A stretch of 64,000 nt of DNA from NCBI GenBank assembly GCA_021018995.1, contig CM037592.1, forward strand, positions 78,867,301 to 78,931,300. The letters run 5' to 3'. A program made the translations under genes and the position numbers. Every line of letters starts with the position of its first letter. Within the stretch, counting starts at the first letter, position 1. Positions 15,009 through 62,690 of this stretch are shown here, piece after piece. The notes beneath the pieces were generated by a model. That model saw only the letters and a program-made list of their open reading frames with translations. It was not told where the DNA came from and did not search any database. The stretch is from Chloranthus sessilifolius (lineage: Eukaryota; Streptophyta; Magnoliopsida; Chloranthales; Chloranthaceae).

Positions 15009-15387
15009 CTGTAGACACCCCCATTTTACCCTCTTGAAGTATACAAATCTATTTGATCAACCTTTTACATCTCCCATGACTTTTTGGAAAGGACTTATCT
15101 TTTTAAGATTTTCAAAATCCTAACATGGGGACCATATACTGAAACAATAGTGTATGGCTAAACATAGGCTGAAACAATAGCTTTGTGACTCAGATCCCAT
15201 AAAGGTAGGGACCATATACTAAAATAATAGTATATGGCTAAACACAGGCTGAAACAATAGCTCTGTGGTTCAGATCCCATAACCTTAGGGGCGGGGACTA
15301 TATACTGAAACAATAGTATGCAGGCGAAATGTGGGTTGAAACAATAGCCTTGTGCCTCGGACCCGACCCAGACCCGGGACAATCCCG

Positions 15388-15835
15388 AATTACGCGCACT
15401 AAACCAAGTGTACAATTCGATTGAGCACCACACCACTAGTGCACAATCGATCCTCATCAGACCAAACTTCTCCTCCCTTTAACCGCCTCGAGACTCAATT
15501 GTGCACCCTAACCAGTGCGCACAATCGGATTATGTGCTCGGTCACTAGCGCATAATTGGTCCCTAAGTCCTAAGACCGCAAAAACTCCACGATTGAGCGC
15601 AATACATGAAGCGCTTAATTGGATTGTGCGTTCCACACTGGGCATGCAATTAGTTTCATTAGAATAGGATTGGGACACCCCGGCTGAGCCAGTCAGCCGG
15701 TCACTCACTGAGCCGGTCACCGACTCAAAGTGGTTAAGCACCCGATATAGGGCGCACAACTCAATTAAGCACCCAAGATTGGACGCGTAATTGAAGTTGA
15801 CCGGCTAATTACACGCACCCCATAGGGCGCATAAT
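15388..15835. repeat. Array of about eight short hairpins in the LTR
   Basis: Units of the form AATTGTGCGC - about 8-12 bases - GCGCACAATT recur: for example ATTGTGC/GCACAAT (15498-15525), ATTATGTGC/GCGCATAAT (15529-15556), GATTGAGCGC/GCGCTTAATT (about 15592-15622), and AATTACACGC/GCGCATAATT (about 15807-15835). Several arm pairs change together between units. The same array appears in the opposite LTR copy at 20617-21050. Confidence 0.8.
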
Positions 15836-17218
15836 TAGTAAAATACTTATAAATAGACCCCCTTACCTCGACCCAAAAAGACACAATGACTTGGAGATTC
15901 GAGTTTATAATTTTTTCCTCTCTTCCAAGCCTAGGGATTTCGAGATTCTTTCTTTGGCGCCTGACTTCAGGTAATTTCTTAGGTTCTACTTTCTAGTTTT
16001 TAATTTCTAATTTCTAGTTTTCAATTTTTAGGTTCTAGTTCTTAGCTTCTAGGTTCTAGTTCTTAATTTTGACCTCAGTTCTTAATTTTCATTCTAGTTC
16101 TCAATTCTTAAGTTTTAGATTTCAGTCCTTAGTTTATGATCCCAACCTTTCCCAATTGCCAATCCCATCACTTTTATATTTTACCTATTTTGAAGTATCA
16201 AACAAAATTGGATTGGTACAAAATTGGTCACGTTTGAAAGCTTATCGAAGTAGCTTTCCAACGAGCTAAGAAACGTGCAATTTCGACATATATCGAAGAA
16301 GTTATGGTCAATTTTTGAAAACTACGCAAAAAGTGACGTTTTTCAAAACTCCTAGTTTAATTAGGATTAGTCTCTTTATTATTTTATTTTAGAAATTAGG
16401 GTTCGTTTCTTTTATTAGAAATAGAATCAGTTCCCTCATCGTTCTAGGACTTTATTTTATTATTTTCGAAGAACTAGGAATTAGAGTTACACTAAGATTT
16501 CTAGTAAAAGCCTATAAATAGACCTTTACCCCCTAGCCATTCAATACACAATTTTCCTCTACACAATTCTCTTCTACACAATTCTCCTCTGCACAATTTA
16601 CACGATTCTTACACAATTTTAACATCCAACAATTGAATTTTCGAGATTCCTCTCTGCAGCCCTGGCCTCAGGTATACTTTCCTTCTCGTTCTTAATTTCA
16701 GCTTTTAGTTCTTAGTTCTAGATTTTAGGTTCTAGTTATGGATTTTAATTCTAAATCCCTTTCAATTTTTTTTAGTATTTTTTTTATCACTAGTTCTAGT
16801 TCTTAATTACTAGAGCCAGTCGTTAGCTTTAGTTTCTTGATTTTTCTTTCTGGCTTTAAGCCTTCAATTTTAGTTCGTAGTTTTGATTCTAATTTTTTTA
16901 ATCTCAAATTCTATTCTAAAATTCTAAAACTTAGGTTTTTGATCTTCAATCTTTATCTCTAGGTTCTAGATTTTAGTTTCGATTTTAATCCTAGAATCAT
17001 AGGTTTCGTAATTCTAGATTTCCTATTCATAGGTCTTAATTTTTTAAATCTTTTAAAATTTATAATTTTGATCTTTAAATCTATAATTCCTAATTTAAAA
17101 TCAGTTTTTCAACCCCTAGCCATCTGATTTGCCCAAGGGAGCTTACGGAGGGTACTCAGGAACGGGGCCGATCCTTCTTAACATAACGGGCCCAAACTCT
17201 TTTTTTTATCTTTTTTAC

Positions 17219-19752: not shown

Positions 19753-19762
19753 CTTTTATATC

Positions 19763-21422
19763 TAAAAGCTGAAATTAAGAACTAGAAGGAAAGTATACCT
19801 GAGGCCAGGGCCGCAAAGAGGAATTTTGAAAATTCAATTGTTGGATGCTAAAATTGTGTAAGAATCGTGTAAATTGTGCAGAGGAGAATTGTGTAGAGGA
19901 AAATTATGTATTGGAAAATTGTGTCTTGAATGGGAATTGTGTAAAGGTCTATTTATAGGCTTTTACTAGAAATCCTAGTGTAACTCTAATTCCTAGTTCT
20001 TCTAAAATAATAAAGTAAAGTCCTAGAACGATAAGGAAACTGATCATATTTCTAATAAAAGAAACGAATCCTATTTTCTAAAATAAAATAATAAAGAGAC
20101 TAATCCTAATTCAACTAGGAGTTTTGAAAAACGTCACTTTTTGCGTAGCTTTCGAAAACTGACAATAACTTCTTCGATACATGTCGGAATTGCACGTTTC
20201 TTAGCTCGTTGGAAAGCGACTTCGATAAGCTTTCAAACGTGACTAATTTTGCACCAATCTGACTTCGTTTGATATTTTAAAGTAAGTCAAACATAAAAAT
20301 TACGGGATTGACAATTGAGAAAGGTTGGGATTATAAACTAATGACTGAAATCTAGAACTTAAGAATTAACAACTAGAATAAAAATTAAGAACTGAGGCCA
20401 AAATAATTAAGAACTAGAACCTAAAAGCTAAAAACTATAACCTAAAAATTGAAAACTAGAAACTAGAACCTAAGAAATTAACTGAAGTCAGGTGCCAAAG
20501 AAAGAATCTCGAAATTTCTAAGCTTGGAAGAGAGGAAAAAATTCTAAACTCGAATCTCCAAGTCGTTGTTGTGTCTTTTTGAGTCGAGGTAAGGGGGTCT
20601 ATTTATAGGCATTTTGCTAATTACGCGCCCTGTGGGGTGCGTGTAATTAGCCGATCAACTTCAATTATGTGCCCAATCCTGGGTGCTTAATTGAGTTGTG
20701 AACCCTATATCGGGTGCTTAACCACTTTGAGTCGATGACCGTCTCAGTGAGTTATTGGCTAACTGGCTCAGCCGGGGTATCCCAATCCTAGTCTAATTAG
20801 ATTAATTGCGCTCTCAGTGTGGAACAAACCAATTATGCGCTGGTGACCGAGAAATCAGGTCTGAAACAGACCAATTATGTGCTGGTGACCGAGCACATAA
20901 TCCGATTGTGCGCGCTAGTTAGGGCACGCAATCGAGTCTCGAGGCAGTCAAAGGGAGGGAAAGTTTAGTCTGACGAGAATTGATTGTGCGCTGGTGGTGT
21001 GGCACTCAATCGAATTGCGCGCATGGTTCAGTGCGCATAATTCGGAATTGTCCCGGGTCTAGGTCAGGTCCGAGGCGCAAGACTATTGTTTCAACCCGCA
21101 TTTCATCTATATACTATTGTTTCAGTATATAATCCCCGCCCCTAAGGTTATAGGATTTGAACTATGGAGCTATTGTTTCAGTCTGTGTTTAGCCATATAC
21201 TATTGTTTCAGTATATGGTCCCTACCTTTATGGAATCTGAGCCATAAAACTATTGTTTCAGCCTGTGTTCAATTATACACTATTATTTCAGTATATGATC
21301 CCCATATTAGGGTTTTGAAACTTTTAGAGAAGGTAAGTCCTTTCCGAAATGTCATGGGCGAGATCAAAGGTTGACCAAACAGATTTGTATACTCCGAGAG
21401 GACAAAATGGGGGTGTCTACAA
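19763..21422 (-). mobile_element. Tat-like LTR copy (minus orientation)
   Basis: Reverse complement of 15009-16708 over about 1,660 bp with roughly 90 percent identity by eye. It ends at 21422 with the complement of TGTAGACACCCCC. No purine tract lies beyond 21422, so it is a solo or 5' LTR, truncated on its inner side at 19763 next to the Tekay/Del-type LTR. It keeps the TATAAATAG boxes and the hairpin array. No clear target duplication was found. Confidence 0.75.
20617..21050. repeat. Hairpin array, second copy
   Basis: Counterpart of 15388-15835. It includes one perfect 9-bp stem, ATTATGTGC (20874-20882) with GCACATAAT (20893-20901), plus AATTACGCGCC/GGGTGCGTGTAATT (about 20617) and AATTGCGCGC/GCGCATAATT (about 21015-21048). 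Confidence 0.8.
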
Positions 21423-23779: not shown

Positions 23780-24110
23780 AAGGATTTTGAGTTTTATAAG
23801 AAACTGAGTAACTTAAGAACGCATAAGAGAAAAATCAGGAATCTGAGTCTACTAAGAGTCTGTCAGGATTCTGAGTGTCCAAGAATCTGAGATTTTCTAG
23901 AAAAAACTAAGAAACACCTGAACAAGGCCCAAGGCAGTGTTTATGAACTTTTCCTAGAAAAGCTCAAATTCTTGACAAGTCAGATTCCTACAGAATTGTG
24001 GCCAACTCCAATTCCTAGCTCTTCTCATGTGTTCTTTTAGAGGTCAAAAAAGCTCAGATTCCTATCTTTCCCCGTAAATATGCTTTTCCAAAAACTAAGA
24101 TTTAGTTAAG
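23780..24110. mobile_element. Two head-to-head partial MITE copies
   Basis: The left piece ends ACACCTGAACAAGGCC (about 23931). A second, reversed piece starts at once (GGCAGTGTTTATGAACTTTTCC) and runs to about 24105. The right piece is the reverse complement of 47405-47565, including AGGAATCTGAG, CTAAAAGAACACA and TTGTCA(A/G)GAAT blocks. The GGCCTTGTTCGGG-type end is of Tourist/PIF-like MITE style. Both copies are incomplete. Confidence 0.5.
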
Positions 24111-24226
24111 TAGATGGACATCATACGACCGTTTAGATGACTGAAGTGCATCGGCTACCTTCTACTTACTAGTACTATTTTTTTCCCGATTTACGATCAA
24201 CAAGGAATGCACACAGTGGCTGGCAA

Positions 24227-24635
24227 TATTTTCAAACACCATATGAATATAATTGTACGCTTACATCAAACATGAATATGACCATTGAAGTGTGATTTGC
24301 TATTTTGACATGTGGCACATATTTATGATCAGTCTAAATTTCTCAAGTGACAATCTATTAATAGTTGATGCTTTACCCACATAATCTATGCCCATAAGTG
24401 AATGTGAACCATTCAATTGGGCGGTTTTTAATCTCAGCCATTAAAATTAAGCACAACCGTTGGTATTATAGAGAGTGCACAACAGATGGTTCAAAACTCT
24501 AATTTTTGGGCCCATTACCTTTTAATCTATGATCTATAACTTTGACAGTGTAGATTACCCACATCTCAAATTGTTGATGGTATACGATCATTTCAATATC
24601 ACTTTGGCGTTTAAATGACATTTGGGAGAGTAGGC
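24227..24635 (-). mobile_element. MITE-like element, family A, copy 1
   Basis: Corresponds along most of its length to the reverse complement of 26211-26645: shared blocks include CATTGAAGTGTGATTT, TTAAAAT..A..CAACNGTTGGTAT, TTTTTGGGC, and the end CGTTTAAATGAC. Non-coding. Orientation is given relative to copy 2 only. Confidence 0.65.
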
Positions 24636-25345
24636 CTCACGATATTATACCTTGAGAGAAATTCGTTGACTGCTTCATTTAATAAGGTTGATGGTACTAC
24701 CAAACCACATTATGGACAACCACCTCACTTAAACAAAGGAAAAATATGTTCACTGCTTCAAGTAAGACAATATAGATCATTTTTTGCCCCAATCACCTAC
24801 ACGATAGATCTTGAGATCATAGGCCTACCATCTGTGAGTCAAATGCTAATTCCAAATAGCACGAATCTCAAAAAGTAATTGTGAACCCCATACCAACATT
24901 GTTCAGGTTCATTTTTTGGGATACGCACCAACTGAAAATCAAAGTCCTACCGCATGATAGTACGTCCCAAATCTCAAAATCTATTGTGTGAGAGGTTGGG
25001 ACCAAAAATGATCGACATAGTTTGATTTGAAGCAGTCAAATTTTTTACTTCGTTTAGGTGAGGAGGCTCTAACATATAGTGGTGCTATGGTACACCAGCC
25101 TTTTAAGGAGAGAAAAAGAGCGCCATAGTGTACTCGAAAGGCTCAAATTCTGAGTCCACCTTATTTACTCGAAAATGAGATATTGTACTATTCTCATATT
25201 TATTAGGAAAGTGCATGGGACCCACTACGATACCCTAACGCAGAATTTGCTCAAAAATATTCGGAATTTGCAACTTTTCGACACCCAAAGTCCGATTCCT
25301 AGTGGTTGTCGCTAACCGAACTAGGCCTAAAGATTCCACGGGACT
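24636..25345. other. Intergenic stretch
   Basis: No gene or complete repeat seen. Short open frames lack codon bias or known motifs. The text resembles decayed transposon filler. Confidence 0.4.
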
Positions 25346-25730: not shown

Positions 25731-26210
25731 AATCTGAAAGAAGACAGGCTTTTTTATGGAACCTGTGTGACATACAGGTGAAAGAATCAAATCTCTAAAA
25801 CCAAATTCACATTCTTCTCATAAAAATTTTAAAAAATTAAAAAAAAAAAAGGGTTACTCAAAGCAAAGACTTAGCATCACTGATTCCTTCAACTAGTCTC
25901 TAAAGTGCAATGGAAAAGAATTCAAGCTCAATATAAAGAAAAATTAATAAATAAATAAGAATACAAACCCATTCTATGTTTCCTTTCCAAGAAAACTACC
26001 ATCGGCAAGCAATTACAAGGTGAAAACTGATTCATGGGTTGACCCTCAACATGATTTATGTCCAATAAATTTGATGTGGGGGCAACTTGAATGGTTGATT
26101 GGGTTACCATCAAGCAATCGACAGCTTTCATACAAATATGACTCATCTCGAAAAGAGATTCAGAATAAGATGTAATGCTAACTTCGTTTAGTTGAATATA
26201 GGACCTAGCT

Positions 26211-26645
26211 CTCCTGACCGTCATTTAAACACCAAAATGGTGTTTACATGATCTTACACCATCAATGGTATAAGATGTGGGTGATCTGTACCATAAAGCT
26301 GACAGACCATAGATTGAAGTGCAACATGCCCAAAAATAGTGTTTTAGGAAGATTTAAACCATCCAATCTGTAAACTGTTATACCAACTGTTGGTTTTTAT
26401 TTTAATGGCTGATATTAAAGCTCATCAATCGGATGGTTTACATCCACTTATAGGCGCATTTCTTTGGGCTGAGATATGCTCCAATAACAGATTGCCACTT
26501 GGATAATAGAAACTGATCACATATGTGCACCATGTGACATAATGATAAATCACACTTCAATGGTGTGAGATGAAAGGTCTAATGACAGTAGTGGTGTAAG
26601 ATCAGTTAAACACCATTTTGATATTTAAATGTCGATCAGGAGCCA
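26211..26645 (+). mobile_element. MITE-like element, family A, copy 2
   Basis: Terminal inverted repeats of about 48 bp, roughly 85 percent identical: left CTCCTGACCGTCATTTAAAC, right the complement of CTCCTGATCGACATTTAAAT. Length is about 435 bp with no coding capacity. Copy 1 lies 1.6 kb upstream in opposite orientation. No convincing target duplication, so the superfamily is open. Confidence 0.75.
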
Positions 26646-28496: not shown

Positions 28497-29762
28497 CTAA
28501 GCTTGAAAAATCTGCGGCAGCAAACACATCATATCTGATAGATGCCGAGCCTCCCCAGCAGAGAGATCGCGCCTGAAATCAACATTCCACTCTCCACCAA
28601 AAGCAGCAATATCCCAACAGTTGGCCACCGAAAAACCTTTCTTTCGGCTAATAATATAAAGCTTAGGATACCGAGTGCATAAACGTTGGTCGCCGATCCA
28701 TAAATCTTCCCAGAATCTGACCTCCACACCATTTCGAATCTTGAAACGAATTCCCCTATTAAAGGCCGGCATTACGGAGAGAATACCTTTCCACCACCCC
28801 GACGCCTTTTGGCTGCCCCTGGGACTGATATCCCACCCATTTCTATGCACCTGATATTTATCCTTGACCACCGCATCCCACAGACCTTCTTGCCCATTGC
28901 CCAATCGCCAGATCCACTTACACAAAAGAGCTTCGTTCATCTGGCTAATTCTACGGATACCGAGGCCACCATCTTTCTTAGGGAAAGTCACAGTTTCCCA
29001 ATTAACCATATGTAGTTTCTTCCTTTCATCCCCACCGCTCCATAAGAAATATCTCATACATTTTTCAATAGTTTTGACAACAGTTGCGGGGCACCTAAAA
29101 ATGGAGAGATAGTACACCGGGATATTGACCAATGCGCTTTTAATAAGAGTAAGTCTGCCCGCCATAGACAACAAATTACCATTCCAAACTGTGAGCCTAT
29201 TTTCTACCCTTTCAATGACTAGGTCCCATAGCGCCTTCGTTGGCTTGCCCAAACATAGCGGCAACCCTAAATAAGTAGTCGGAAAACTTCCCGTGGTACA
29301 TCCCAAATAATTGGCAAACTCGATCACCTTCGACTGATCCAAGTAAACCCCCATAACCTTGGTTTTTGTGAGATTTACCTTTTGACCGGTGCAAGCCTCA
29401 TAGCACCTAAGAATCCATCTTAGGTGAAGAAGAGAATTCTTATCCGCATCACAAAAAACAACGATGTCATCGGCAAATTGGAGGTGGGTTACCAACCTGA
29501 TATTACGAGAGACTCTAAAACCATTTACGTCCCCAATGTCGGTCCCCCTCTCCATCAGCTTTCCGAAACACTCACCAACAAGGTTAGACAAGAAAGGAGA
29601 CAGTGGGTCACCTTGTCGCAGCCCTCTAGTACCCTTAAAGTACTCATTCGGCGCTCCATTAATCATAATAGAAAACATAGGCGACTTGATGCAAAGCCGA
29701 ATCCACCTCCTCCGCTTATCGCCAAAGCCCATTTTCTCAATATTTGATCTATGTATGCCCAA
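28497..29762 (-). pseudogene. LINE ORF2, reverse transcriptase (longest open part)
   Basis: A 421-codon open stretch with RT blocks: GLRQGDPLSPFLSNL, FADDIVVF (catalytic FADD in place of YADD, common in plant L1), TYLGLPL, and LIKSALVNIPVYYLSIF. It primes and copies the LINE RNA at the nicked target in active relatives. The preceding block KLDMEKAYDRVHW lies in another frame at 29663-29854, so the enzyme is broken. Confidence 0.9.
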
Positions 29763-29819
29763 TGCACTCGGTCGTAGGCCTTTTCCATGTCAAGCTTCAC
29801 TATCAATCCCGACAATTTA

Positions 29820-32547: not shown

Positions 32548-33650
32548 TGACGCAGGACAGTACCCTAAACTACGTGAATGCAAAGATTAAATAATTGTCG
32601 AAATAGAATTGAATTTAAATTAAGCAATAAACCTTAAAATATAGCGAATACCTTAGGCTTTCGTAGTATTCCATGGGAGGATCACGTATAATTCGAGCAG
32701 GGTTCAATCCGGGCGTTAGATCCGTTAGGTTGCAGTGCGGACCGATCCTAAAGATAGAACTCTAGATTTCCATATTAAGGCGCTCACAGTGCAATGATGG
32801 AATCTCTGGTTTTCTGGCTATTTCAATATGGTTGGGTTTAATAGTCTGATGGAGGCTACGGTTGTTGAATCGGATCGATTCAAAGGTTTAGGGAAAAGCT
32901 AGGGTTTAGGATCTCAAAAGGATGATGGCTGATTCGGGGTTATGGGATCAACACAAGCAGAGAAGATAAGAAATAGATAGATAGAAGATAGATTTTGTGG
33001 GCTTCGCACCCTTGGCTTCACACCAAACCCTTCTCGGGAAGAAGAATCACTCTTCAGAGAAACTCATCTCAAGTTTCAAAAGCAAAACACTAATTCATTC
33101 AATAATCAATAATTAATTACATTGTTTAACTTAAGGACCTTATATAGGAGTCCTTTCAAACGAAAATAAAACCCAAAAACAAATTCCAAAAGGACAAGCA
33201 TGCCCCTAAAAGCTCAATTCGAATTTCAGAAAAAAAAAATAATAATAATAATAAGTTGCGCGATTTCGATCAATAGAAAGTGAAGTTCAATCGATCGAAA
33301 TTGAAATTCGATCGATCGAAAAAACATATTTCAAAAGTTCACCGCATAAATTCGATCGATCGAAATTAAAACTCGATCAATCGAATGAAAATTCGATCGA
33401 TCAAGTATATAATTCGATCGGTCAAATTATATACTCCACAACATATGTTTTTCCTCTCGCTGCCGTTCGATCGATCGAAATAGGACTTCGATCGATCGAA
33501 ATTGCAATTCGATCGATCTAATTGGCTGGTTCCTCCAATTCTTCATCTTTCGCCTCTTTCGCCTATTTCTGATTTCCACTCCGCTTCTTCCGACGTCGGT
33601 ATGCACGAAACAGTCCATATCCAATGTCTACGATGTCGGCGTCCCCGTCA
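32548..33650 (-). mobile_element. CRM-like element, 3' LTR
   Basis: 1,103 bp, TGAC...GTCA ends. It contains a TATA-like box (CTATATAAGG on the minus strand, about 33133-33142) and a cluster of TTCGATCGATCGAA boxes (33250-33530). Confidence 0.9.
33250..33530. repeat. TTCGATCGATCGAA box cluster in the 3' LTR
   Basis: About ten boxes built on TCGATCGA with AAATTGAA-type spacers. The 5' LTR carries a shorter, rearranged cluster at 39230-39450, which accounts for most of the length difference between the LTRs. Confidence 0.9.
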
Positions 33651-36600
33651 ATTCTCTTAGGCCGAAAAGGCTTCATCACCGATGAAGCGGCATCGTGATA
33701 GCGCTCAAGCATGTCGACGTTCAGGCGTCGCACCTCGTCTTCAGCGAACCATGAGTTCTCGGAGTCCGGCTTTCCCAACCACTTGACCAAGTACTTTTGA
33801 ATTCCGCCCTCATGGGTGGAGATCGCCAAATCATCTAGTATCCCTTTGATCTCATCTCTGCGCTGCTTGCGTGGGGAAGGGAAGGGTAGGGGTTGCAGGG
33901 TGGGGCTGGCATTTGGGCTCGGGGCTGCTTGGAAGGGGTTGTGAGGGGGTGGTGTTGGGGCCAAAGAAGGAACCAGGTCCTCCACATTGAATGTAGAGTT
34001 GACCCCTATATCCGATGGAAGCTCGAGAACATATGCATTAGGTCCGCTCCTTGCCAAAATTCTAAAAGGCCCAGCGCCGCGGGCTTGAAGTTTCTTTGCA
34101 GCTCCCAATGGGAACCGCTCAGGCCTAACCCGAACCATGACATAATCTCCAACCTGAAATTCCTTGAAGCGCCTATGCGCATCTACAGATATTTTGTATT
34201 GTTCATTGCTTGCATTAATTCTTTTTCTAATTTCGGCACGCATTTCATGTATATGTTGTGCAAATGAATCGGCTGATTCGGAAACTCGATGGGATGCAGA
34301 CATAGGAATTAGATCAAGGATGTTCGAGGCCTATGATCAAGGATGACCTCAAAAGGACTCATACCTAGGGACCTATTGACTGAATTGTTGTATGCAAACT
34401 CGGCAGAGAACACCTCAAATTGGTGTTCGAGGCCTATGATCAAGGATGACCTCAATAGGACTCATACCTAGGGACCTATTGGCTGAATTGTTGTATGCAA
34501 ACTCGGCTAAAAGCAATATAGAATCCCAAGTCCTAGGATGATCACCAACAAGACAACGAAGAAGATTTACCTAAGCTCCTATTGGTGGACTCCATTTGGC
34601 CATCTGTTTAAGGATGATAGGCCGAAGAAAATTGGAGCATGGTACCCATCATGTGCCATAAAATTTTCCAGAAATAACAGGTAAACTTCGCATCTCAATC
34701 CGACACAATCGTCTGGGGTAACCCATGTACACGCACAACCTCCTCGAAAAATAATTTGGCTATATAGCCGCATCGGAGGTTTTAGAGCAGGGTATGAAGT
34801 GGGCCATCTTGGAAAAGCAGTCCACTACCACAAAAATGGAATCGTGCTTCCGTTGGGTCTTTGGAAGTCCGAGCACGAAATTCATAGAGATGTGACTAAA
34901 GGGGTGTACAAGCCGGTATTCTGTGTGATATGCTTCGCAACTTGGCATGTACGACATTGTTTTACAACCCTAGAAACATCTCTCACAAGGCTAGGCCAAT
35001 AAAACCTATCCTCAACGAGCGCACTGGTTTTATCGCGCCCAAAATGTCCGGCAATCCCTTCGACATGTAACTCCCAGATGAGGAAGTCACACAATGAAGT
35101 ACGAGGGATACACATACGATTTCCTTTGAACAAATACCCATCCAGCAGGGTATACTCGGAGTTAATGTTGTTCGAATTTTCAAAGAAAGCAGTGTATTCT
35201 GTCCCGAAATTTGGGCAATCAGGATAATCTTGCTTCAACTGCTCAAATCCGATGACCTCGGTGCTCATAGACTGCAAAGTCGCCACTCGACGACTAAGCG
35301 CATCAGCAGCTTTGTTCTTGGCACCGGCCTTATGCTTCAAGACAAATGTGAACCCTTGAAGGTACTCGACCCACTTCGCGTGCCTCAGGTTCAACTTTTT
35401 CTGGGAAGCAAGGAAACGTAAGGCTTCGGTGGTTAGAAAACAACACAAACTCCTGCGGTTTCAGGAAATGTTTCCAATACCACAGAGATCAGACGACCGC
35501 ATAAAACTCCTTATCATAGGTGGAGTATTTCTGCTTTGCCTCATTGAGCTTCTCACTAAAATAGGCCACAGGGTGACCTTCTTGGCTCAGCACTCCGCCT
35601 ATGCCTACACCCGATGCGTCACATGCTACTTCAAAGACTTTAGAAAAGTCTGGTAAGCGCGTGACGGGTGCGATAACCATCTTATCTTTTATCTCGGCAA
35701 AGGCCCTGGTCGCGGCTTTGCTCCACATGAACTCCCCTTTTCTCAAGTAATCGGTAATGGGAGCCATGATGGTGCTAAAATTTCGGATGAAACGACGATA
35801 AAACGTGGTCAAACCGTGGAAGCTACGGACTTCGTGAAGATTCCGAGGTTCGGACCACTCCACAATGGCCTTAAGCTTCGCAGGGTTCGCAACCATCCGG
35901 TCTACCGAGACAATGAATCCCAAGAATACAACAGAGTGCTGCATGAAGGTGCACTTCTTGAGATTCGGGTATAACCTTTCTCCCCTCAAGGTTTCACAAA
36001 CCAACCTCAAGTGGATAATGTGTTGTTCCTTGTCTGAGCTGTAAATCAGGATGTCATCAAAGTACACGACAAGGAATTTGCCAAGGAATGGCCTCAACAC
36101 TTGGGTCATGAGCCTCATAAATGTCCTCGAGGCATTGGAAAGCCTAAAAGGCATGACCATCCACTCATAAAGACCGTCTTTGGTCTTGAAGGCGATTTTC
36201 CATTCATCACCAGGGCGAATACGCACCTGATGGTAGCCACTTTTAAGATCTATCTTGGAAAAGATAGTGGCTCCAACCATCATGTCAAGCATGTCATCAA
36301 ACCGCAGTATGGGAAACCGATATTTAATGGTGATCTTATTAATCGCAAGGCTATCCACACACATGCGTCATGTACCATCTTTCTTAGGTGTGAGTAAAGC
36401 TAGTACAGCACACGGGCTCAGACTCTCTTGAATGAACCCCTTTTGAAGGAGCTCACTGACTTGCCGAATCAACTCGGCGTGCTCAACCGGATTCAACCTG
36501 TAGTGGGGCAGGTTCGGTAATGTAGATCCGGGAACTAAGTCAATTGCGTGTTGAATGTCACGCATGGGAGGGAGCTCATTAGGTAAGTCTTCGGGGAAGA

Positions 36601-38526: not shown

Positions 38527-39572
38527 TGACGCAGGACGATACCTTAAACTACGTGAATGCAATGATTAAATAATTACCGAAATAGAATTGAATTTAAATT
38601 AAGGAATAAACCTTAAAATATAGCGAATACCTTAGGCTTTCGTAGTATTCCATGGGAGGATCACGTATAATTCGAGCAAGGTTCAGTCCGGGCGTTAGAT
38701 CAATTAGGTTGCAGCGCGGATCGATCCTAGAGATAGAACTCTAGATTTCCAAATTAAGGCGCTCACAGTGCAATGATGGAATCTCTGGTTTTCTGGCTAT
38801 TTCGATATAGTTGGGCTTAATAGTCTTATGGAAGCTACGGTTGTTGAATCGAATCGATTCAATGGTTTAGGGAAAAGCTAGGGTTTAGGATCTCAAAAGG
38901 ATGATGGCTGATTCGAGGTTACGGGATCAACACAAGCAGAGAAGATAAGAAATAGATAGATAGAAGATAGATTTTGTGGGCGTCGCACCCTTGGCTTCAC
39001 ACCAAACCCTTCTCGGGAAGAAGAATCACTCTTCGGAGAAACTCATCTCAAGTCTCAAAAGCAAAACACTCATTCATTCAATAATCAATAATTAATTACA
39101 TTGTTTAACTTAAGGACCTTATATAGGAGTCCTTTCAAACGAAAATAAAACCCTAAAACAAATTCCAAAAGGACAAGTATGCCCCTAAAAGTTCAGTTCG
39201 AATTTCAGAAAAAAACAAAAAAAAAAATTAAGCTGCGCGATTTCGATTGAAAGTGAAGTTCGATCGATCAAAAGTGAAACTTGATTGATCGAAAGTGAAA
39301 CTTGATCGATCGAAAAACATATTTCAAAAGTTCGCCGCAGAAATTCGATCGATCGAAATTGAAACTCGATCGATCGAATTATATACTCCAGAACATATGT
39401 TTTTCCTCTCGCTGTCGTTCGATCGATCGAAATAGGACTTCGATCGATCGAATTTGTTGGTTCCTCCAATTCTTCATCTTTCGCCTATTTCTGATTTCCA
39501 CTCCGCTTCTTCCGACATCGGTATATACGAAACGGCCCATATCCAATGTCCACGATCTCGGCATCCCAGTCA
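38527..39572 (-). mobile_element. CRM-like element, 5' LTR
   Basis: 1,046 bp, same TG...CA ends as its partner and followed on the minus strand by the initiator-Met type primer site. Contains its own TCGATCGA cluster (39230-39450). Confidence 0.9.
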
Positions 39573-39577
39573 ATTCA

Positions 39578-40580
39578 TCTACTAATTCCACCTCCACCAC
39601 TACTGGATATTTGAACTCTCCAGCAATAACCCAAACACAACGTGGGATCTCAGTCCACGTCGATGATTTGACTTGGAATCTAGCATAATGGAGCTTCTCA
39701 AACGCTAGAGTAGTCGGATCAATTGCCATTAACCCACCCCATCTATTGGCAATCTCTCTGAAAACCGCTTCCACCCACAGATGAAATGGCAGTCCTCTAT
39801 TCCGCAGCCACACACTCCCTCCAAAAAAACACTCATCCGCCGCTTCCATCTCCTTTCCCCAATCTCCTAGTTTGATTTTACCCCCACTCCACTTCCAGAT
39901 CCGTCCCACCTCCTTCAGCACCCTAATTTTATCCTGTGAGCAACTGAGCTCAAACAAGATCGCTTTTGGTCTAAAGGGCTTTACCGACAAGGAATCAATT
40001 CTCTAATCAGCTTTAGCCTGATGCAAAAGAGAGTCCAAATCCCTAATATCCTTATTCAACCAACCTGCTATGCAAAAAATTCGAAAGCCAAGTTGCCTAT
40101 CCCTCAACCGAGGATGCTTCCACATGGATCTCACTCCGGCTACCTTCTCTGGAATCCATATGGCTCTTCTCAATCCCACTCGGTAGATTTACACCTTTGA
40201 ATTTCTTTCCCCATAAGGACCATCCATTTGCTACATCTTTCACCTGAGAAGGGTTTAAGACCACCTTCCCTCTCGACACTCCTATCTTGGATCTCCAATG
40301 CCACCCCATACTCCGATGATTTCTACACGAAGTCCGGAAGCATCACTGCCAACGTGCGAAATTCCAAAGACCGCAGACCCCTCATTTCCAATCGCCATCT
40401 TTGGTCGGGTGCCTTCCATTCTTCTTAGCTTTCCACGCAGCAACCTCTTTCTCAAGATTTTCATAGAACCGTCGTTCCCTCCATCGCCCATTGCGTAGGG
40501 ATCTCCACTCCGGCCACTGTGCTCTCCACCACTGTGCGCTCCATCTTCCACTTTTCAGAAATCCTTCTTTCTCCATTCCA
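39578..40580 (-). pseudogene. LINE ORF1, N-terminal part
   Basis: The minus strand shows SVKPFRPKAILFELSCSQDK, WLRNRGLPFHLWVEAVFREI and IANRWGGLMAID, the nucleic-acid-binding domain (DUF4283-like) of plant L1 ORF1. Further upstream pieces (40097-40309, 40282-40551) include a start-like region with RRFYENLEKEVAAWKAKKNG. The frame is broken more than once and the CRM-like element interrupts it at 39577. Confidence 0.75.
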
Positions 40581-44372: not shown

Positions 44373-44456
44373 GAATGAATTTTTTTAAAAGGCCCGTTAA
44401 AGACGCGTTTAATCAAAAAGAAGAAAATCCAAATTTATTAGAGTCTTCAACTTTCA

Positions 44457-44795
44457 ATCCAGTCACTTTTATGTTTGGCCTATTTTGAAGTGCCAAAAAA
44501 AGTCGGATTGATGCGAAATTAGTCATATTTGAAAGCTTATCGAAGTAACTTTCCAACGAGCCAAAAAACGTGCAATTCCGACAAATATTGAAGAAGTTAT
44601 GGTCAGTTTTCGAAAGTTGTACAGAAAGTAACGAATTTCAAGAATCCTAATTGAATTAGGATTAGTCTCTTTTATTATTTTATTTTAGAAAATAAGAGTT
44701 CTTTCTTTTATTAGAAATAGGATTAGTTTCCGTATTGTTTTAGGACTTAATTTTATTGTTTCAGAAGAATTAGGATAATTCTTTTATTTGAATTA
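44457..44795 (+). mobile_element. Tat-like LTR fragment
   Basis: About 340 bp similar to 16172-16500 of the Tat-like LTR: shared GAAAGCTTATCGAAGTA, TTTCCAACGAGC, GAAGAAGTTATGGTCA and TTAGGATTAGTCTCTTT. It is a third, internal fragment without either LTR end. Confidence 0.8.
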
Positions 44796-45629: not shown

Positions 45630-46003
45630 TTAGGGCATGTTCGAATAGCCCATTTTCGCTCAGAAACTGAGTTGCAGCTCAGAAAGTTTCCATTTATGAG
45701 CTTTTCCGAGGGTTTCCTATGTTCGGCTACCGCAGTAGGTCCCACACAGATTCTGACGAAAGCTGAGTTTTGATGCACTTTCCATTTCCGAGTTATTTTC
45801 TCAGAAATAGTCGGAAACTGAGCAATACCGTTTGAGGTGAGTGTATAGTACGCTTTACTATATACACCAGATAGAATCTTCGTTGCCTGCGCCTAGCTTC
45901 AAATTCCGAGCAACCCTACATCTTCCTTGAGCGAAGGTTTTCCAAGCGTCTAAGGCGAGAAGCGGTTCAGTGTTGGTCTTCAACCTCTCTGCAGGTCTTA
46001 ATT

Positions 46004-46105
46004 ATGAGAATGAAAAGATTGAACTCCATCACAGACGACTTCTCTCCGGCCAAATCGCTTCGGAGAACGAAAGCTGTGGAGTTGAAGAGGCGAATTGCTA
46101 CCTAA
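46004..46105 (+). pseudogene. Unidentified gene-start-like ORF, 33 codons
   Basis: Reads MRMKRLNSITDDFSPAKSLR, then RTKAVELKRRIAT and TAA. A TATA-like TATATA at about 45857 and a leader-like, C/T-rich stretch precede it. The next bases contain another open piece, SMGNADEFTMLQAASRNRSN, in a different frame (about 46120-46190). It looks like the first exon of a plant gene cut short where it meets the HSP70 fragment coming the other way. Product not recognised. Confidence 0.3.
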
Positions 46106-46281
46106 AGTTTACACTTCTATGGGAAATGCAGACGAATTTACAATGTTGCAGGCAGCTTCTCGGAACAGATCTAATAGCCTCTGTTACCATTTAAAAAACA
46201 TAATTTGTACTAGTTGAACCCTTCAACAAATACAAAAGTCCCCGCCCATTACATTTCTCAACAATAATACACGCAAATCAT

Positions 46282-46350
46282 CTAATTAGCAGGCAAATAT
46301 GTAGTACCGAGATCAATACCGATCGTTGGACCTTCACCTTTTGCAGCCAT
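46282..46350 (-). pseudogene. HSP70/HSC70 N-terminal fragment
   Basis: The minus strand reads [18 protein letters not shown], then LPAN and TAG. Cytosolic plant HSP70s begin '[24 protein letters not shown]', so 18 residues match, covering the first phosphate-binding loop (DLGTT) of the nucleotide-binding domain. Homology stops exactly after Tyr, and the remaining roughly 630 residues are absent. The start ATG is the natural one and follows an unbroken leader and promoter, so this is a promoter-plus-start fragment and not a retrocopy. It cannot make a chaperone. Confidence 0.85.
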
Positions 46351-46510
46351 TGATTTCTTGTTGTCGACGACGAAGGATGAAGACGAGAAACTATAAAATC
46401 AGAAGAAGGAAAAATAGAAATAAAACAAAATAGAAACTTAGATTAATTACTATTGGTGTTTATGTTGTTGTGAGACGATTGGTAGACCTATATAGTTGCT
46501 AGAAGTACCC

Positions 46511-46567
46511 TTTATATAGTCCAAGTATGGTTTCCAGAAAATTCTTCCAAATATGCTTTGAACCTTC
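46511..46567 (-). promoter_or_regulatory. Heat-shock promoter: TATA box and heat-shock elements
   Basis: On the minus strand, GAA-2-TTC-2-GAA (46532-46544; plus strand TTCCAGAAAATTC) is a perfect three-unit heat-shock element. A second two-unit site, GAACCTTC, lies at 46560-46567. TATATAAA lies at 46511-46518, 13 bases downstream of the first element. The ATG of the HSP70 fragment is 160 bases further, a normal leader length. Such sites bind heat-shock factors in HSP70 promoters. A weaker TTC/GAA cluster is at 46613-46635. Confidence 0.8.
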
Positions 46568-46899
46568 TGATTAGACCAACGTGGATGGTGGAGGCAACTT
46601 CCCACGATTTCCTTTTCTAGGTTCTTCGGAAATCTTCTTATTCTTTTTTATTTGATTTTTTTTGGTTCACCTATTATACATTGCCGTAAGATGGGAGCTT
46701 AAACTTGGTCACAAGTTTTGTACAGTGGCATGTAATTAAGAAGGAAAGACGCTTATTTTTGGGATCGATGCAACATGAAACACCATCTAAGTTGTCTAAT
46801 TTAACGACTATGAAGTAAAGATGTTTGAGGCTAAAGATTGGTACTAAAAGTGAACTCTATCATCTAATTTAATATGGGATAAAGAATTTTTTTTCAAGT

Positions 46900-47350
46900 G
46901 TTTTTAACACGGTGACAGATGTTGTAGCGCACATCCCTATCTCAAAAAGATTGTTTTTACTGATTGGGCCACGTGGCAGACTGCTTTGCATATTCCAGGG
47001 TTAAAAAATCACACTCATTGATGTGTTTTAAATGGTTTGAGCATGCGGTAGGTGCCATTGATGGTACACATAAGATGCAACTGTTTAATAAGGACATGCG
47101 TCACTACAAAATGTCGTAGAACAGATCACCTTTGCCCTGTAATGGGCTAATGTAGTATGTACTTTCTTTCTTCATATAAGCGACTTGATCGTGTTATTAT
47201 GATAGGCGATCGAGTAGGATAATTGTACGAATCAATTTTGCACAATTGCACTGACGGAAGTGTTCAATCTCCCATGGATCGTGCACCGGCCAAAAATGAC
47301 ATTGGAATATATATGGCACAGTATCAGCACCACGGTCATACAATGTCCCT
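46900..47350 (+). pseudogene. Harbinger-type transposase remnant
   Basis: The block KWFEHAVGAIDGTH (47030-47074) matches the 'yFkdCiGAIDGTHI' signature around the first catalytic Asp of plant PIF/Harbinger (HARBI1-like, DDE_4) transposases. An in-frame TAG follows sixteen codons later and flanking sequence is too decayed to read. Confidence 0.65.
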
Positions 47351-47404
47351 AAACTAGACCGATTCTGTGCTTTTCTGGAAAAATTAAAATAACACAGGAA
47401 ATCC

Positions 47405-47565
47405 TTCGTTTTCTGGGAAATGCCAGGAATCAGAGCATTTCTGAGGCCTAAAAGAACACACCTGGGAAAAGCCAGGAATCTGAGTTGGCTAGGAATCTGC
47501 AGGAAACTAACTTGTCAGGAATCAGAGCTTTTTTGGGAAAACTGGGGAAATACCCGAACAAGGCC
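47405..47565. repeat. MITE-family end shared with 23932-24105
   Basis: Forms the right end of the candidate Harbinger-type element and is a reverse-complement relative of the fragment at 23932-24105 (blocks AGGAATC, GAGTTGGC, CTAAAAGAACACA). Confidence 0.7.
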
Positions 47566-47568
47566 TTA

Positions 47569-58397: not shown

Positions 58398-59815
58398 TGA
58401 TATGGAGAATTTTTGTGAAGAGAGAAATGAGACAGGAAGAGGAAGAAGTTCTGAGAAGGAAGGATTCTTGTTTAATGTCCGACATCTCATTCCTTTAATC
58501 AAGGCTCTATTTATAACCTTATACAAGTAACTAAATAACCGCCCACTTACACACTAATGCTAAATAACTGACTACTTACACACTAATTAAACAGCATGAG
58601 AGTAATGCCTAATGGAGGGGAAACCCACTACTAATTAATAACTACCCACATCAGATGGAAAATCGGTGTGTATCATTCCACCCTCCTTGAAATCAACCTT
58701 GCCCTCAAGGTTGATCTTCATCTGACGAGAAAGGATCAAGAAATCCTTCAGGTAGAGTTACCCCCGAATTATCTATACTTGAAGACAACTCTTCGTGTTC
58801 TTCCACATCTTCATCATCATCGTTATAGGGGAGATTGATGATTGAGACAAAGCCTAATGTTGTGGGGTGAATGATAGTCGTCGAGGTATCCTTCATCTTC
58901 ACTTTTGGACCATCCATCTTCGAAAATATATCTTTCGAAGAATCGACACATTCACTTTGAGTGAGATTCATGATTGATGGGGTGCTTTTGTGGTCCTTGT
59001 CTCATTCGCAAGTATTTCATTTCATACTCTCCTAATGTATAGGTCGATTTAAATCGATTCCATATTGTTAAAAATAGGTGGTTCCTGAATAACTTGGTGG
59101 GAAAGCCTTTCAAAAGCTTCTTGATAAGCTGCTACAGTTGTGGTTTGTTTCAGTCGAGCTAGAGCTTCTAACGGGTCCTCGTAGGAGGTTGGACCAAAGT
59201 ATTGTTCGGCCGTGTAGATCCAGCCAATTGGGTCGTCTCCGTTAAACTTTAGGAAGGAGAACTTGAGGTGTCGATGAGGGTGGTCATGGATAGTGTGAGA
59301 ACAAGAAGTATGTGGGTGTGAGGATTCGTCACGTGCAAATGAATTGATTTTAGGAGAGCTAGTGTTTTAGCTATGAAAGGTTCGAAGAGCTTGAAGTTCG
59401 GTTAACACTGTTTGTAAGGTTGCGTTCACCTGGTCGAAATTGGACTCTTGTCGTGCCAAGATCTCGTTGACATCGTTGCAAAATTCTGCATTCGATTTTC
59501 CACGAGTATCCATGGTCGGAACTTGGCTTTGATACCAATGATATGGAGAATTTTGTGAAGAGAGAAATAATACAGGAAGAGGAAGAAGTTCTGAGAAGAA
59601 AAGATTCTTATTTAATTTCTGATGCCTCATTCCTTTAATTAATGCTCTATATATAGCCTTATACAAGCAACTAAATAATCGCCCACTTACATACTAATGC
59701 TAAATAATCACTCACTAACACACTAATTAAACAACATGAGAGTAATGCCCAATGGAGGGGAAAGTCACTACCAATTAAGAACTACCCATATCAAATGGCA
59801 AATCGGTATATATCA
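58398..59815 (-). mobile_element. Small gag-only gypsy-type LTR element with intact ends
   Basis: LTRs at 58398-58675 and 59539-59815 (278 and 277 bp, TGATAT...ATCA ends), with target duplication GAATG at 58393-58397 and 59816-59820. On the minus strand a TGGTATCAAAGCC primer site (59538-59524) follows the 5' LTR, and a purine tract AAGGAGGGTGGAA precedes the 3' LTR. The 860-bp internal part shows only gag-like protein: MDTRGKSNAEFCNDVNEILA, FNGDDPIGWIYTAEQYF, and an acidic C-terminus. There is no pol, so it depended on partners. LTRs differ by about 12 percent by eye, which makes it clearly older than the CRM-like copy. Structure whole, coding part broken. Confidence 0.85.
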
Positions 59816-62432: not shown

Positions 62433-62690
62433 ACTAGTTGCAGAGCTGGGACGTTCGATCGTTCAACATTGATCCTATGCATCTCTCGATTTCGGCAACC
62501 TCAGGTGTTTTATTCTGTTCTCTATATTTTGCACATATGTATTTTTGTCTTTCAAAAAGAGCTGAGATTCTAACATGTTCACCTGATAAACCAGTTACAC
62601 AGAAGGAGTTCCAGACCTGAGACTTTTCATTGAAGATTGATCGCAAAGGTCACTCGATTTTCGGCAACCTCAGGTGTTTCCTTTTGATAG
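62433..62690 (+). repeat. Tandem duplication of an exon-like unit
   Basis: Two units end in the same CGATTTCGGCAACCTCAG or CGATTTTCGGCAACCTCAG, directly followed by GTGTTT, and each is preceded by AAACYAGTT and an AG. Exon-like spans are about 62446-62504 and 62606-62673. Period is about 168 bp. This looks like exon plus flanking intron copied once, possibly in a non-coding or 5' leader exon. Confidence 0.5.

Follow-up and report, generated by a model that had tools for sequence, protein, structure and literature searches.

Segment 45633-47565, 1,933 bp of the 64-kb window (the whole stretch of Chloranthus sessilifolius DNA that was analysed), raises the question of whether a single DNA transposon has taken up the promoter of a heat-shock gene and, if so, whether it carries that promoter to new sites. 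The initial annotation had described the segment as a candidate PIF/Harbinger element containing the promoter and the start of the coding sequence of HSP70, a description that its ends, flanks and cargo support. The evidence collected below makes it likely that the segment is an old, non-autonomous Pack-type PIF/Harbinger element that captured the 5' region of an HSP70 gene. The features on which this reading draws are collected in Table 1.

Table 1. Coordinates of the features in and around the candidate element and of the second interval in the window.
Feature	Position	Strand	Basis
Second decayed interval, right-type and left-type end	23933-25327	-	BLAST, 280-bp comparison, nhmmer, DnaK tblastn
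Left TTA, putative target-site duplication	45630-45632		sequence
Left terminal inverted repeat GGGCATGTTCG	45633-45643	+	sequence, pattern search
Subterminal region of left type, with a relative at terminus 25327 (minus)	45633-45860	+	nhmmer, shuffles
GC-richer stretch (46%) with open frames	45861-46180	+	composition; no Pfam match
HSP70, first 18 codons	46350-46297	-	PDB sequence search, translation
Predicted HSP70 5' UTR	46351-46485	-	deduced from TATA box
TATA box TATATAAA	46518-46511	-	sequence
Perfect three-unit heat-shock element (HSE) GAATTTTCTGGAA	46544-46532	-	pattern search
GAIDGTH motif	47051-47071	+	six-frame motif search, simulation; without Pfam support
Subterminal region of right type, with relatives at termini 23933 (plus) and 23929 (minus)	47406-47565	-	nhmmer, shuffles
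Right terminal inverted repeat GGCCTTGTTCG	47555-47565	-	sequence, pattern search
Right TTA, putative target-site duplication	47566-47568		sequence

Ends and flanks of the candidate element

PIF/Harbinger elements end in inverted repeats of GGNCNTGTT type, and the superfamily prefers TTA/TAA as its target. The candidate is bordered, as had been noticed at the outset, by TTA on both sides and by imperfect terminal repeats, which are identical at 9 of 11 bases (hand count); the flanks thus agree with the 3-bp TWA target-site duplication of the superfamily and the ends with its short inverted repeats, the TTA match saying little on its own because TTA/TAA is the preferred target. Exact matches to the pattern TWAGGNCNTGTTCG are limited in the 64 kb to these two ends, which face inwards, and were absent from all 100 shuffled sequences, a surprise that is overstated since the pattern was derived from the very ends being tested. 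With up to two mismatches allowed, 13 end-like sites were found in the window, where 6.82 were expected (the number 13 was reached by 3 of 100 shuffled sequences). The agreement between the first 20 bases of the left and right ends was equalled by 6 of 300 shuffles. Homology between the two ends past 11 bp was not upheld: 57 of 300 shuffles reached the top local score of the ends (250 bp each), though with looser scoring over 280 bp just 2 of 200 did so, and a faint homology may exist. A comparison of the 22 outermost bases of the left end with viral contigs gave no match, as expected for plant DNA.

A heat-shock promoter and other interior sequence

Also borne out was the report that the 1.93-kb segment contains 18 codons of HSP70 preceded by a TATA box and a perfect three-unit HSE, all of which lie on the minus strand (46544-46297). 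The HSE precedes the TATA box by 13 bp and the HSP70 ATG (minus 46350) by ~180 bp, a promoter distance, and the HSE, the TATA box and the start codon are all intact and properly spaced; judging from the position of the TATA box, transcription would start at ~46485 on the minus strand. Perfect three-unit HSEs are so frequent by chance (3 in the window against 1.33 expected, with 13 of 100 shuffles reaching 3) that this one counts only through its place. The 18 HSP70 codons are followed by four foreign codons and a stop, the whole frame spanning 46350-46282. A search of the PDB with the 18-codon peptide returned 40 sequences up to E 1 (best E 0.047), 39 of which are named HSP70/DnaK-family proteins and one (1qqo) just 'hydrolase'; Pfam gave no match for the 22-residue piece, which is short.

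The HSP70 match sits well inside the candidate and reaches neither 45633 nor 47565, so that homology extending past the supposed ends, which the initial annotation had named as a ground for abandoning its proposal, was not encountered. A captured host-gene piece enclosed by the ends, as expected of Pack-TYPE elements, is thereby present (HSP70, 46297-46350, minus). We rejected the continuation of an HSP70 gene nearby, as tblastn of E. coli DnaK against the window gave the known piece (46332-46300, E 7.1, 9 of 11 residues) and a chance-level match at 2298-2170 that is not HSP70-like (E 2.8, 28% identity, containing a stop). Neither this search nor BLAST of the element recognized a further HSP70 piece in the 64-kb window.

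The GAIDGTH motif, which we take to be a HARBI1-like transposase motif, has a single occurrence in the six-frame translation of the window and none in 60 simulated 64-kb sequences, and is a probable relic of such a transposase. The HARBI1-like block of the initial annotation stands as a motif and not as a recognizable transposase domain: Pfam, run on nine interior pieces, found neither an HSP70 nor a transposase family, and the transposase assignment is drawn from one motif. The piece containing GAIDGTH gave two weak unrelated matches in Pfam (ARM repeat, E 0.017; TfoX_C, E 0.028) and three chance-level matches in the PDB (E 1.1 to 1.2). The GC-richer stretch holds a 76-residue open frame; it is possibly a second captured gene piece or else the element's own sequence. 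Rfam at gathering scores found nothing in the whole window.

Two terminus types and a second interval

BLAST of the element against the window detected its right end again at 23949-24078 and 23815-23929. Seven end-like places were compared pairwise over 280 bp, namely those at 45633, 47565, 23929, 25327, 25345 and 50560 together with the BLAST-found 23933; the other seven of the 13 end-like sites were covered by profile searches only. For brevity the termini at 45633 and 47565 are referred to as L and R, and those at 23929 (minus), 23933 (plus) and 25327 (minus) as A, B and C. These five termini are of two types, a left type (L and C) and a right type (R, A and B). The scores of L-C, R-A, R-B and A-B were reached by none of 200 shuffles each, whereas L-A (114 of 200), L-B (31 of 200) and R-C (130 of 200) did not match. 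The split is not perfectly clean, because in the 250-bp end comparison the resemblance of L to B, an 18-bp stretch out of register, was equalled by only 1 of 300 shuffles, although the 280-bp comparison did not repeat it. Single-sequence nhmmer searches recovered the same relationships within the left type (L to C, E 2.9e-6; C to L, E 4.1e-7) and the right type (R to B, E 3e-17; R to A, E 4.4e-9; B to R, E 5.6e-18). Outside the five termini these searches gave partial matches only, with E 0.017 or worse, including weak ones of the left end to 62592-62680 (E 0.017, model 19-110) and of the right-end profile to 47399-47361 (E 0.017).

B and C face each other at a distance of 1.4 kb and delimit a second interval in the orientation opposite to that of 45633-47565. 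Its flanks are CAA and TAA, and of the 11 bp at each of its ends 6 are identical (hand count). The termini of the two intervals are 77% identical over 133 bp and 63% over 112 bp (nhmmer). The interior of the second interval is largely unlike that of the first and is without the HSP70 piece; the best interior match between the two, at 46755-46870, is borderline (nhmmer E 0.008, a score reached in 1 of 40 simulations). Of the other copies with these ends that the initial annotation proposed to look for, the 64-kb window shows one interval with related ends, which lacks the HSP70 cargo.

The converging pairs 45633/47565 and 23933/25327 each consist of one left-type and one right-type end, an outcome expected one time in four if the types were dealt at random to two pairs; its weight is limited because there are only two pairs and B is decayed. 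This pairing speaks for a single family of elements whose two ends differ and whose interiors would have been exchanged, as in published Pack-PIF elements. For none of the five termini was a same-type converging partner found within 20 kb, the sole such pair in the window being 23933/47565, which are 23.6 kb apart.

Several further observations were made around the second interval. A and B, both right-type and PIF-like, stand back to back with CAA alone between them, and no left-type partner for A was recognized in the window. The end-like site TTAGGCTGCGTTCG (plus, 25345) begins 14 bp past the TAA adjoining C, and the 280 bp from 25345 weakly resemble B (1 of 200 shuffles). End-like sites thus occur back to back at 23929/23933 and again at 25327/25348. 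The arms of an inverted repeat, 70% identical over 367 bp, are located at 24281-24634, inside the second interval, and at 26204-26564, outside it.

Proposed origin, predicted activity and known counterparts

How might such an element have arisen? We propose that 45633-47565 was moved as one unit, with its two distinct ends and an interior including the HSP70 promoter, 5' UTR and first 18 codons, by a PIF/Harbinger transposase that would have to be supplied in trans, as the element has no whole transposase of its own. The capture most likely proceeded through joined neighbouring insertions or through aberrant repair. Insertions lying side by side are the proposed source of the DNA that Pack-TYPE elements pick up (PMC8903248), and the back-to-back arrangement of A and B agrees with such a source. 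The intact promoter, set against ends at 63-77% identity, may hint at a later capture.

A single unit is supported by the ends, which face each other between two TTA copies, and by the recurrence of both end types in the second interval. It is counted against by the single copy with the HSP70 piece in the window, by the decay of 23933-25327 and by a transposase without Pfam support. The slight similarity of the two ends past 11 bp would fit a chance composite, in which two unrelated MITE or other element ends came to lie around an HSP70 fragment and a transposase relic that never moved together. Equal TTA flanks come cheaply at a preferred target, and the window has many degenerate end-like sites, some of them back to back. 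We nevertheless consider a composite of this sort unlikely, since 23933-25327 repeats the pairing of end types, the five termini are without same-type partners nearby and perfect matches to the end pattern are confined to these two ends (from which the pattern was written). The same pairing speaks against, without deciding against, two ends from separate MITE families, a further ground that the initial annotation had named for abandoning its proposal.

If the segment is an element with a captured promoter, the promoter could still bind heat-shock factor. The resulting transcript would run leftwards on the minus strand through ~0.85 kb of the element into the left flank and would start with a reading frame of 22 residues only. 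With this orientation the promoter has the GAIDGTH relic behind it and cannot directly drive that frame. A bolder idea, which the initial annotation had put forward in similar form, is that of a heat-responsive transposon family in which the captured HSP70 promoter was kept and copied and would confer heat-inducible transcription on neighbours or on antisense transcripts. Such an idea draws on the intactness of the HSE, TATA box and start codon next to termini that have diverged, and it has precedents in HSE-bearing Helitrons (PMC6927752), ONSEN (PMC8376061), mPing (PMC3782648) and engineered mPing (PMC11254759). However, the window shows the HSP70 piece in a single copy, the second interval lacks it, and no neighbouring host gene was recognized when Pfam was run on 36 of 36 open frames of at least 75 aa between 40 and 56 kb, a scan that could miss genes with short exons and that matched DUF4283 (39382-40002) only. 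We therefore regard a heat-responsive family as very improbable. Little credence is likewise given to its stronger form, a PIF/Harbinger family that carries a complete, intact HSP70 core promoter to new sites, where heat would switch on the transcripts of each copy; such a natural DNA transposon would spread an entire heat-shock promoter in place of isolated binding sites.

By its content the window is probably nuclear plant DNA. Three of ten frames scanned with Pfam gave matches, RVT_1 reverse transcriptases at 35492-36367 and 28500-29789, which we read as gypsy-type and LINE-type, respectively, and the DUF4283 frame mentioned above. The gypsy-type frames are surrounded by direct repeats (32548-33654 and 38527-39576, 86% identical) that are probably the LTRs of one old element and that contain 21-bp TCGATCGATCGA tandem repeats. 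An inverted pair of 1.7 kb (15010-16708 and 19762-21421, 86% identical) recurs in part at 44447-44775, and a direct repeat of ~279 bp (58398-58675 and 59539-59815) is 88% identical, its copies 1.1 kb apart.

Plant DNA transposons are well known to capture gene sequence, and 45633-47565 probably belongs to a known kind, Pack-PIF, with a captured heat-shock promoter as its unusual cargo. Pack-PIF elements with captured gene pieces have been published for maize, and TTA/TAA duplications are reported for most PIF elements (52.4% in rice, 81.2% in maize) (PMC8903248). Akin to the maize elements as described in that report, the candidate has PIF-type ends, TTA/TAA flanks, no complete transposase and a captured host-gene piece, and there are neighbouring insertions and a relative with related ends and another interior, as in maize, where relatives have equal ends but other interiors; in contrast to them, its captured piece is a promoter with start codon and its ends are little alike past 11 bp (PMC8903248). 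mPing of rice, a 430-bp MITE of the same superfamily and TTA/TAA target, can in its natural form make neighbours stress-inducible (PMC3782648). An engineered mPing resembles the candidate in carrying HSEs, six synthetic ones added by design; it was excised and inserted in Arabidopsis and delivered in soybean, so that a cargo of HSEs is compatible with movement (PMC11254759). Here, unlike in mPing, a natural HSP70 piece supplied the HSE together with the TATA box and the start codon, and the element is known from its sequence alone. Caenorhabditis Helitrons are likewise DNA transposons with HSEs, but of another superfamily, with many copies and with demonstrated binding of HSF-1 (PMC6927752). 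ONSEN of Arabidopsis also places HSEs inside a plant transposable element, but it is an LTR retrotransposon that has the HSE in its own LTR and, in the account given there, no captured HSP70 gene piece (PMC8376061). A 2026 review of plant gene capture mentions promoters and captured binding sites, and its main text uses neither 'Harbinger' nor 'heat'. A natural HSP70 promoter inside a PIF/Harbinger element was not among the literature matches listed, and one could still be in print.

Should the copy prove single and silent, 45633-47565 would be one more transposon fossil. As an element that captured its promoter and moved with it, it would be the counterpart in nature of the laboratory-made mPing with its load of HSEs (PMC11254759), and a transposon with a whole heat-shock promoter would show, in a natural setting, whether promoters remain functional after their capture and alter the wiring of stress responses.
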